A DNA stretch of 64,000 nucleotides, taken from positions 1 through 64,000 of the forward strand of contig CANGOX010000007.1 in NCBI GenBank assembly GCA_947455605.1, written 5' to 3'. Source of the DNA: Chitinophagaceae bacterium (GTDB lineage Bacteria > Bacteroidota > Bacteroidia > Chitinophagales > Chitinophagaceae). A program made the translations under genes and the position numbers. This document shows, piece by piece, positions 9,193 through 13,026 of this stretch (position 1 is its first letter; every line of letters begins with the position of its first letter). The notes below the pieces were generated by a model. That model did not search any database. It saw only the letters and a list, made by a program, of their open reading frames with translations, and was not told where the DNA came from.

Positions 9193-11754
9193 ATGGCAAA
9201 TAGTCTCAAAAAGAAAACGCCACCTCCGCCGGATCCCGAAAAGCTTACCATAGATAAGGAAGCCGAAGTAACCGTAGCTGAAGTTGTAAAAGACGAACGT
9301 ACCACCAAGATCGCCGGTGCTGTCAGCTTATTGATCGCCGTTTTCCTTTTTGTTTCCCTCACTTCATATTTATTTACCTGGCAGGAAGACCAGGATAAGA
9401 TCCACCAGTTCGGAATCAAAATATTTGCAACAGACGATGTAAAGGTTACCAACCTCCTGGGTGTACTGGGTGCTTATATTGCCCATAACCTGATCTATAA
9501 AGGATTTGGAATTGCCTCCTTCCTTTTCTGTACTACTTTTTTTGTATTAGGGATGAACCTGCTTTTTGGAAAAAAAGTATTCAGCCTGGTACGTAACCTG
9601 CGATATGTTTTGGTAGGATTGGTAGTACTGAGCACGGCACTCGCATTTGCAACCGGTGGCAATGCCTTCTCATGGGGTGGGGCTGTTGGCGAATATTCAT
9701 CCGGATGGCTGGTAAAATGGACCGGTAATGTAGGCACCGGTGCCATCATCTTTGTTGCGGCATTCAGTTATATCATCTGGCGGTTTAATCCGGTATTCAG
9801 ATTGCCCGATTGGAAATTCAGCCGTCCGCAAAAAGCGAATACAGATGCTTTACCCCTTACAGAAGATGATGAACTCCCGGTAACCAAAGAATGGACCGAT
9901 GAAGAAGAAGCCGGCGCACTGTTAATGATAGATGATGAAATTGAAGTAGAAGAGCCCGTTAGCCAGAATAAAATGAAGAACGAGGGCAAAGGCGTGGTTG
10001 TGATCATGCCCCATGGCGCGGAAGCCGCTGCCAACCCGATGAACGATTTTGATGTAGTGGAAAAAGAAGAGGAAGAAGAACCCGTTGTTCATGAAATGGA
10101 ACCATTGGTAACACAGGAAGTATATACCCCAAAAACAACTCCAGACCCCAAACTCCAGACTCCAAACTCAAATCTTGAATTGGAGATCAAAGAAGTTCCC
10201 GAAGTAGAAGAAGAGATACCCGCAGCTCCTGTTGGCAGCCTCGCCACCAAATACGATGCAACCCTTGATCTGAAAGGCTACAAATACCCAACTCTCGACC
10301 TGCTTGAAACCCATGGCAGCGAAAAGATCGTACACGATCCTGAAGAACTGGAAACCCATAAGAACCAGATCATCGCCACGCTTAAGAATTATGATATTGC
10401 CATACAAAGGATTGCGGCAACAGTAGGTCCTACAGTTACTTTATATGAGATCGTACCCGCGCCCGGTGTTCGTATCAGTCGTATCAAAAACCTGGAAGAT
10501 GATATCGCCCTAAGTCTGGCAGCCTTAGGAATTCGTATCATCGCACCCATACCCGGTAAAGGAACCATTGGTATTGAAGTGCCGAATGTACGCAAGTCGG
10601 TAGTGAGTATGCGTACGCTATTGGCTTCCGATAAATTCCAGAACAGCGGATTTTCATTGCCTATTGCGATAGGTAAGAAGATCGATAACGAAAATTTTAT
10701 TGTTGACCTCGCCAATATGCCGCACCTGTTAATGGCGGGTGCTACCGGACAAGGTAAATCAGTAGGATTGAACGCTATCCTGGTTTCCCTGCTCTATAAA
10801 AAACATCCATCCCAACTCAAATTTGTACTGGTAGATCCCAAGAAAGTAGAGTTGAGTTTATACAGAAGGATCGAAAAACATTTCCTTGCCAAATTACCCG
10901 GTGAAGAAGAATCCATTATCACCGATACCAAGAAAGTGGTGCATACGCTCAATGCATTATGTATCGAAATGGATAACCGCTATGATCTCCTGAAAGAAGC
11001 CCATTGCCGTAATATCAAAGAATACAACGAGAAGTTCTCTGCACGAAAACTCAATCCCGAAAAAGGTCATCAATATTTACCTTTCATTGTACTGGTAGTA
11101 GATGAGTTTGCCGATCTGATTATGACCGCCGGAAAAGAAGTGGAAATGCCTATCGCCCGTTTGGCACAGTTGGCAAGGGCCATTGGTATACACCTGATCA
11201 TTGCTACACAAAGACCTTCTGTGAATATCATCACCGGTACCATCAAAGCCAATTTCCCGGCACGTATCGGTTTTAAAGTATCCAGCAAGATCGATAGTCG
11301 TACCATCCTCGATGCAGGCGGTGCCGAGCAATTAATCGGAAAAGGAGATATGCTCGTAAGTTATAACGGAGAGATCACCCGTTTACAGTGTGCATTTGTT
11401 GATACACCCGAAGTAGAACGCGTTTGCGAATTCATCGGGGATCAGAAAGGATATCCGCAGGCATTCTTATTACCGGAATATGTAGACGAGAAAGACATGG
11501 ATGGTAAAGACTTTGATGCCAACGATCGCGATCCATTATTTGAAGATGCAGCACGACTTATTGTACAGAGCCAAATGGGTTCTACCTCTCTGATTCAACG
11601 TCGAATGAAACTTGGCTATAATAGAGCTGGTCGTCTAATGGATCAACTAGAAGCGGCTGGAATTGTGGGTCAAAATCAAGGTAGTAAGGCTCGGGAAGTG
11701 ACCTTCAAATCATTGACTGAATTGGAAGAATTCTTTCTGCAAAATAATATATAG
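9193..11754 (+). CDS. ftsK: DNA translocase FtsK
   Basis: N-terminal TM segments; MAGATGQGKSVGLNAIL Walker A; LVVDEFADLI; C-terminal gamma-like winged-helix region FDANDRDPLFEDAARLIVQSQMGSTSLIQRRMKLGYNRAGRLMDQLEAAGIVG. Confidence 0.97.
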   Translation: MANSLKKKTPPPPDPEKLTIDKEAEVTVAEVVKDERTTKIAGAVSLLIAVFLFVSLTSYLFTWQEDQDKIHQFGIKIFATDDVKVTNLLGVLGAYIAHNLIYKGFGIASFLFCTTFFVLGMNLLFGKKVFSLVRNLRYVLVGLVVLSTALAFATGGNAFSWGGAVGEYSSGWLVKWTGNVGTGAIIFVAAFSYIIWRFNPVFRLPDWKFSRPQKANTDALPLTEDDELPVTKEWTDEEEAGALLMIDDEIEVEEPVSQNKMKNEGKGVVVIMPHGAEAAANPMNDFDVVEKEEEEEPVVHEMEPLVTQEVYTPKTTPDPKLQTPNSNLELEIKEVPEVEEEIPAAPVGSLATKYDATLDLKGYKYPTLDLLETHGSEKIVHDPEELETHKNQIIATLKNYDIAIQRIAATVGPTVTLYEIVPAPGVRISRIKNLEDDIALSLAALGIRIIAPIPGKGTIGIEVPNVRKSVVSMRTLLASDKFQNSGFSLPIAIGKKIDNENFIVDLANMPHLLMAGATGQGKSVGLNAILVSLLYKKHPSQLKFVLVDPKKVELSLYRRIEKHFLAKLPGEEESIITDTKKVVHTLNALCIEMDNRYDLLKEAHCRNIKEYNEKFSARKLNPEKGHQYLPFIVLVVDEFADLIMTAGKEVEMPIARLAQLARAIGIHLIIATQRPSVNIITGTIKANFPARIGFKVSSKIDSRTILDAGGAEQLIGKGDMLVSYNGEITRLQCAFVDTPEVERVCEFIGDQKGYPQAFLLPEYVDEKDMDGKDFDANDRDPLFEDAARLIVQSQMGSTSLIQRRMKLGYNRAGRLMDQLEAAGIVGQNQGSKAREVTFKSLTELEEFFLQNNI
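10136..10171 (+). repeat. Heptamer repeat inside ftsK linker coding TTPDPKLQTPNSN
   Basis: actccagaccccaaactccagactccaaactcaaat in frame in the linker between TM and motor domains. Confidence 0.85.
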
Positions 11755-11768
11755 TTAAGTACACTTTA

Positions 11769-12686
11769 GTGATAAAATTTATCAAAAATATATTCTCTTT
11801 AAAGAAGAATCCAGAGCACCTTGATATGGATACTGCTGTGGAATTCTCAAATAATTGTGAAACGAATAACTCACCGAGGTCTATAGAAAGTATCGATAAA
11901 GTTCCAAAAGAACTTGATGAGGTTGAGATTGAGAGAATGGTTAATGAAATCGCAATCGCAGAGATTGAGAGTGAAGGAAATTCAAATGATGGAACAAACT
12001 TTGATGCCAACGACCGCGACCCCTTATTTGAAGATGCAGCGCGATTGATTGTACAGAGCCAAATGGGTTCTACATCTCTGATTCAGCGTCGTATGAAACT
12101 TGGGTATAACCGCGCTGGTCGCTTAATGGATCAACTCGAGTCGGCAAGAGTCATTGGCCCAAATCGAGGAAGTGCTGCACGTGAAGTTTTGTTTGATACA
12201 TTGGAAAATCTTGAAGAATACTTAATTGCTCTTGAAAAAGGTATGCCTTACCAATTGCATGATGGTAATACTTCTTTAGCTCAATTTGTTGAGAACCATA
12301 AAGTACGAATTGCCAATCGGGTACTGGAACTTCGTAATGCTAAAGAGAATGAGCTTACACGTATCGAAAAGGAAAGAATAAAACAGAAGCTAATAGAGAA
12401 GGATAGAATAAAAAACCTTCACAAAGATGCGCTTAAGGAGTTAATTGCAGAAGGGAGAATTTTCAATCAATTTATAAATCGGGAAGGTAAAAGGGAACCA
12501 ATTCCGCAGGATGTCATGGACGCAGTCTGGAATAGAGACGGTGGACAATGTGTTAAATGCGGCGGTCAGGAAAATTTAGAATTTGATCACATTATCCCTT
12601 TTTCTAAAGGAGGGGCAACTACTTACAGAAATATGCAGCTATTGTGTAAAAGTTGTAATATAGAAAAATCTAATAAGATAGGTTAA
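11769..12686 (+). CDS. FtsK C-terminal (gamma-like) domain / coiled-coil / HNH endonuclease fusion
   Basis: FDANDRDPLFEDAARLIVQSQMGSTSLIQRRMKLGYNRAGRLMDQLE identical to FtsK C-terminus, then Lys/Glu-rich helix and VWNRDGGQCVKCGGQENLEFDHIIPFSKGGATTYRNMQLLCKSCNIEKSNK (HNH with CxxC pairs). GTG start uncertain. Confidence 0.93.
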   Translation: MIKFIKNIFSLKKNPEHLDMDTAVEFSNNCETNNSPRSIESIDKVPKELDEVEIERMVNEIAIAEIESEGNSNDGTNFDANDRDPLFEDAARLIVQSQMGSTSLIQRRMKLGYNRAGRLMDQLESARVIGPNRGSAAREVLFDTLENLEEYLIALEKGMPYQLHDGNTSLAQFVENHKVRIANRVLELRNAKENELTRIEKERIKQKLIEKDRIKNLHKDALKELIAEGRIFNQFINREGKREPIPQDVMDAVWNRDGGQCVKCGGQENLEFDHIIPFSKGGATTYRNMQLLCKSCNIEKSNKIG

Positions 12687-12734
12687 GTTTGTACAACTCT
12701 GTAAAGTAGAGGGATAGCTATTCAAACCCTATTC

Positions 12735-12842
12735 AGTCCCTGTGGAGAAACCTCTTTGGGTTCGGTGCCGAGCGAAGGCGAAGGCAGCCAAATCATGCGA
12801 AGCTGATTTGGCAGAGGCCAAAGTAGTTTCGGAACAGGGACG
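12735..12842. other. Structured imperfect palindrome downstream of HNH fusion gene
   Basis: Outer arms gtccctgt-ggagaaacctctttgg / ccaaagtagtttcggaacagggac; inner hairpin gccaaatca-tgcgaagc-tgatttggc. Confidence 0.75.
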
Positions 12843-13026
12843 AGGCCTAGCGGCCCGAGCGACAATGAGTCACGATTAGTAGTGTTTACGAAATCATAAA
12901 GAAAGACCGAAGTTTGCTTTTAACCGATTCTCAACCCATACAAACCGATATCCCCCTAAACTTAACAACCTCACAAACGTCATAAGAAACCTAAAACCTA
13001 TATTTGCGCCCATTAATCCCCACCAG

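Follow-up and report, generated by a model that had tools for sequence, protein, structure and literature searches.

A gamma-HNH gene directly behind ftsK in a Chitinophagaceae genome, and its relatives in chromosomes and phages

A gamma domain joined to an HNH nuclease

The gamma domain of FtsK, together with KOPS, provides the compass of chromosome segregation. It binds KOPS and, through an overlapping surface, XerD, for which R1289 is the strongest contact in the E. coli protein (PMC5052618). The domain is also found outside the translocase, in motorless phage proteins (phrog_13700; Gordonia phage Hedwig gp56; the PIF1-gamma protein of MT835895). Hedwig gp56 (L294, 814-1833), a protein of 339 aa, is annotated as an FtsK-like translocase, and Pfam gives only gamma and no motor. 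The protein of the gut phage MT835895.1 (L177, 1002-3095) is by eye, from its translation, a PIF1/RecD-like helicase with a C-terminal FtsK gamma domain. Mobile elements may also supply their own activator of XerD, as does the Vibrio cholerae IMEX, whose factor XafT replaces FtsK (PMC9765430). A further class that bears on this locus is that of the phage HNH endonucleases (PF01844; the PHROG HNH families; gp27 of Bacteroides phage BS-TP3).

The window analyzed here, by which we mean the whole stretch of 64,000 nucleotides (positions 1 to 64,000 of contig CANGOX010000007.1), contains on its forward strand a gene in which a gamma domain is joined to an HNH nuclease. By its database matches the window comes from a member of the Bacteroidota close to Sediminibacterium and other Chitinophagaceae. 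It follows ftsK (9193-11754), which encodes 853 aa with, by Pfam, four transmembrane segments (4TM), an alpha domain, an FtsK_SpoIIIE motor and, at residues 778-837 (11524-11703), the gamma domain. Fourteen base pairs separate the ftsK stop codon from the GTG start of the second gene (11769-12686, 305 aa), a start backed by the resemblance of the resulting N-terminus to those of other members of the family. From this spacing, the two genes are probably co-transcribed. The fusion begins with an amphipathic helix (11769-11804) that may contact the membrane, modeled by AlphaFold as a short helix at residues 2-12 with low confidence. The gamma domain occupies residues 82-142 (12012-12194) and is followed by a long charged helix or coiled coil at residues 178-227 (12300-12449; pLDDT about 73-89) and by the HNH domain at residues 261-303 (12549-12677), a region of mixed confidence in the model. 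The winged helix is modeled confidently, and its Foldseek matches are the E. coli and P. aeruginosa gamma domains of known structure (2ve8, 2ve9, 2j5p), among them KOPS-bound 2ve9 (TM 0.92 by target) and 2j5p (E 2e-4).

The first-pass annotation had assigned the segment shared by the two genes to the FtsK gamma family and had described a zinc HNH domain at the end of the second, and Pfam bears out both assignments. PF09397 scores 87.5 bits in the fusion (E 5e-25) and 91.8 bits in FtsK against a cut-off of 30.6, while PF01844 scores 49.9 bits (E 4e-13) against 21.4. The nuclease is not degenerate: D273-H274, N288, N297 and the CxxC pairs at 261/264 and 293/296 are invariant in all six genome-encoded fusions. 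No FtsK_SpoIIIE motor was found by Pfam in the 305 aa, and by the criterion of a RecA-type motor the protein is not an FtsK/SpoIIIE translocase. It shares with FtsK the gamma fold, the recognition helix and the KOPS/XerD contact residues, and in several members the host's own sequence, but lacks the motor, the alpha domain and 4TM, and has a nuclease in their place. With the phage endonucleases it shares the zinc HNH, and with those of BS-TP3 and of prophages also the coiled coil and, in its family, a place in the lysogeny module; the N-termini, however, differ. The motorless phage proteins likewise carry gamma outside a translocase, but have only gamma by Pfam (gp56) or a helicase instead of the nuclease. 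The HNH of Cas9 and IscB shares an HNN-type active site with that of the fusion and resembles it weakly in sequence, but no RuvC domain was found in the fusion, which gives no sign of RNA guidance. To our knowledge XafT has no HNH; it is likened to the fusion by description, not sequence, as an element-type activator of XerD, activation by the fusion being hypothetical. In PADLOC there was no strong family match over the length of the fusion, only weak matches in the HNH region (best E 3e-5).

Exchange with ftsK and matching to the host

A stretch of 236 nt at the end of ftsK (11500-11735) recurs as a direct repeat in the fusion gene (11988-12223), at a spacing of 488 nt and with 78% identity. 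Within it, the tract from FDANDRDP to MDQLE (about 11512-11652 in ftsK and 12000-12140 in the fusion) is identical at 47 of 47 amino acids over 141 nt, and the 17 nucleotide differences between the two sets of 47 codons are all silent. The earlier reading, that the C-terminal gamma domain of FtsK is copied onto the HNH gene that follows, is thus upheld, with 46 aa and about 16 sites revised to 47 and 17. It had further attributed the identity to selection on the protein. The two genes use the same codon at 29 of 44 degenerate positions, where 17.5 are expected from codon bias, and none of 5000 simulations reached 29. This excess shows recent DNA exchange, so that selection alone does not account for the identity. 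Among 31 further ftsK genes from the genus, none matches the fusion at 47 of 47 residues, and they share with it 11-20 of 37-43 degenerate codons, fewer than the window ftsK. In the wing, just 3' of the tract, there is no excess of shared codons (3 of 10), and here the fusion carries GSAAREV, a motif in common with the fusion of the congener G167, the FtsK genes having GSKAREV or GSKPREV at this place. By these codon comparisons, the two copies exchanged DNA recently in this lineage, over a limited tract ending at the wing, and then diverged silently.

The last 28 residues of the window FtsK (11659-11754) are 61% identical to those of congeners, compared with 82% between two congeners. Replacement of the 3' end of ftsK by foreign DNA was considered from this diverged tail and from codon usage, and was set aside, the codon signal being marginal (about 2% of windows are as odd).

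A gamma tree, built on 72 columns only, so that its fine branches are uncertain, groups the L004 gamma with its own FtsK (support 100/97) and the L005 gamma with its own (99/94). The L004 gamma agrees with its own FtsK at 65 of 66 residues and shares 43 codons with it, with 30 expected (0 of 5000 simulations); here too the sharing above codon bias shows recent exchange. The L005 gamma is host-like in protein, not in codons. In the phage contig L185 the gamma domain is nearest to the FtsK of Candidatus Azobacteroides (60 of 72 residues; next best 49). The gammas of L094 (genome G418) and L123 (G836) do not have their own FtsK as closest relative, and that of L003 (G167) is not specially close to its own, though of its family's type. 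A topology that places all fusion gammas in one clade, and with it a single origin for them, is rejected (AU test, p 0.023; lnL 66 lower); when the coiled-coil-HNH portion of these gamma types is considered, a single origin is not rejected (p 0.078). On these trees and alignments, then, the fusion gammas are scattered among those of FtsK, and several match the FtsK of their own host. A host-specific partner would account for such matching, and so, more simply, would homologous recombination.

The setting of the gene raises another explanation: a selfish or homing HNH gene might spread through cleavage of ftsK, its gamma segment serving as an arm of homology or restoring the end of the cut gene. 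Two congeners were examined, G167 and G089, and in both a LolA-like gene comes directly after ftsK with no insert at the junction. The window carries about 1.16 kb more than G167 behind ftsK, and its fusion has ftsK and the LolA-like gene as neighbors, with no repressor adjoining. This insertion exactly behind ftsK, the exchanged tract and the diverged tail of FtsK described above all speak for homing. However, ftsK is uninterrupted, gamma is not among the DNA readers known from homing, and the same insertion site was not found across genomes: the fusions of G167, G836, G917 (L004) and G918 (L005) lie on contigs without ftsK, and that of G418 lies 2.3 Mb from it. The G167 fusion is 57% identical to that of the window over the matched part. 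Among the eight gamma-HNH proteins a place beside ftsK is thus known for the window genome alone and is not a rule of the family, and we regard homing as improbable.

Downstream of the fusion lies an interspersed palindromic intergenic repeat of about 140 bp (12717-12863), strongly folding (z -4.3), with six copies in the genome (others on G000 contigs C114, C82, C111 and C2). It was considered as the end of a mobile unit and rejected, since the five other copies occupy intergenic spots beside ordinary genes and the repeat is not specific to the fusion. No Rfam match was obtained between 11400 and 13100, the repeat included.

Relatives in chromosomes and in phage lysogeny modules

The fusion is not a one-off. 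Besides that of the window, seven gamma-HNH proteins were found: five come from other Bacteroidota genomes (L003, L004, L005, L094 and L123), while L185 and L186 are encoded on viral contigs. With the shared segment placed in the gamma family, the HNH intact and homologous fusions in hand, none of the three refuting outcomes named in the first-pass annotation came about. In L186 a likely transmembrane helix is present, and the gamma has diverged (39.5 bits against the cut-off of 30.6). Short basic N-termini resembling that of the window protein also occur on other gamma fusions, and a likely transmembrane helix is present at the N-terminus of L007 as well as of L186. The same coiled-coil-HNH unit occurs with other or degenerate N-termini in L006 (=L142), L007, L143, L144 and BS-TP3. 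No full-length gamma-HNH fusion was found in the phage and plasmid collections, and no GenBank phage match covered it. An HNH tail like that of the fusion (60% identical over 60 aa) ends a TerD-family-annotated protein of a Deinococcus radiophilus plasmid (L178, 1106-2683), and tails like this one stand on other N-termini in the viral contigs L190 and L193.

These data bear on whether the gene is simply an accident, the end of ftsK fused to an HNH gene with no function. As a single-gene insertion in one species, from a family present in 2 of 399 genomes of the order (E<=1e-55), it might be taken for one. Eight homologues with one architecture, invariant HNH residues and an exchanged tract in which 17 silent differences have left every amino acid the same all argue otherwise, and an accident seems to us very improbable.

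The phage relatives have a characteristic setting. A repressor gene (phrog_4) lies directly upstream of the coiled-coil-HNH gene in L183, L186 and phage BS-TP3 (PHROG); in L006 the upstream gene has an S24 C-terminus homologous to the L186 repressor; in L185 the repressor directly upstream is a weak match; and in L005 and L184 a phrog_8 regulator lies two genes upstream, with one gene between. In five loci a gene for a small lipoprotein or secreted protein adjoins the phage-type HNH gene. The argument from the lysogeny module covers about seven phage or prophage loci, with a recognizable gamma only in L005, L185 and L186 and repressor calls that vary in strength. Since these coiled-coil-HNH relatives sit in the lysogeny module, prophage cargo is the likely source of the fusion. 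On the chromosomes no common neighbor was found among the fusion copies: L004 adjoins a Fic gene, the G167 fusion lies beside an ABC-3C system (CTD6, MC2) and a gene with a weak M78-like match (E 0.045), and other relatives are in islands. In G836 a gene resembling, by eye, a REP-associated tyrosine transposase (L160, 9564-10112) is directly upstream of the gamma-HNH gene. An ftsK-linked system, as first proposed, is therefore not a trait of the family, and that picture gives way to one of phage-type cargo whose targeting domain is refreshed from the host.

Docking and possible roles

By alignment, the KOPS/XerD contact residues are kept in all six genome-encoded fusions, and the equivalent of R1289 maps to the QR preceding GYNRAG. 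With these residues kept, the fusions may plausibly dock on KOPS or XerD. We know of no KOPS for Bacteroidota, so that we can only infer that the fusion would bind the same KOPS site as FtsK. The protein might then serve the Xer machinery itself, gamma activating XerD in aid of element integration or chromosome resolution, with the HNH assisting; the retained R1289 equivalent and the precedent of a mobile element that brings along an activator of XerD (PMC9765430) speak for such a role. Several phage relatives, however, reside in elements that encode an integrase themselves (BS-TP3, L183, L184), and the gene is rare and sporadic, so we would give an Xer accessory function little weight. Of the roles suggested at first, chromosome-dimer, defence or selfish, the last two are favored over dimer resolution, given the rarity of the gene and its relatives in phages.

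The phage relatives also raise the possibility of a nuclease for takeover or killing of the host, in which gamma would direct the HNH to many host KOPS sites that the phage genome would lack, so that host DNA would be destroyed on induction. A host-matched gamma would be a natural rule for telling self from non-self, and the family is present in phages. Yet the genes are downstream of the repressor and co-oriented with it, and are thus probably expressed in healthy lysogens, and the copies on chromosomes are intact although no antitoxin is seen with them. We consider killing of the host unlikely. Position after the repressor suggests instead expression in the lysogen, and thus a function like superinfection exclusion.

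The explanation that we prefer, with a probability of roughly 0.4, is that the fusion is a prophage-derived accessory nuclease, probably used against other phages or elements and docking on KOPS or XerD through its host-matched gamma. In phages the coiled-coil-HNH gene sits in the lysogeny module and is probably expressed by the lysogen, and its gamma would repeatedly have been acquired from the FtsK of the host of the time or rewritten by it. Such a gamma should recognize the targets of that FtsK, KOPS octamers and/or XerD. The amphipathic or transmembrane N-terminus probably keeps the protein close to the membrane, dimerization is probably the task of the coiled coil, and the HNH would nick or cut DNA. 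Its most likely use would be in conflict with other phages or mobile elements, as a nuclease docked on the host KOPS/Xer machinery. The window gene would be a single copy of this kind, without phage context, behind ftsK.

A broader proposal, which we put forward tentatively and with considerable doubt, is that these proteins represent a class of nucleases aimed by a domain copied from the host's segregation motor and refreshed by gene conversion on change of host, with KOPS/Xer as address or self-recognition signal. A literature search for FtsK gamma with HNH, or for phage-encoded gamma domains, returned nothing on such a fusion, most subscription literature lying outside it; as far as the searched literature shows, the architecture and its evolutionary pattern are apparently new. 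A mobile nuclease equipped with the host's own compass would, if this is true, represent a new means of targeting for such enzymes, and the use of KOPS/Xer sites in phage-host or phage-phage conflict would become testable. The matching of gamma to the host also offers a natural example of how recombination with an essential gene can refresh a domain.
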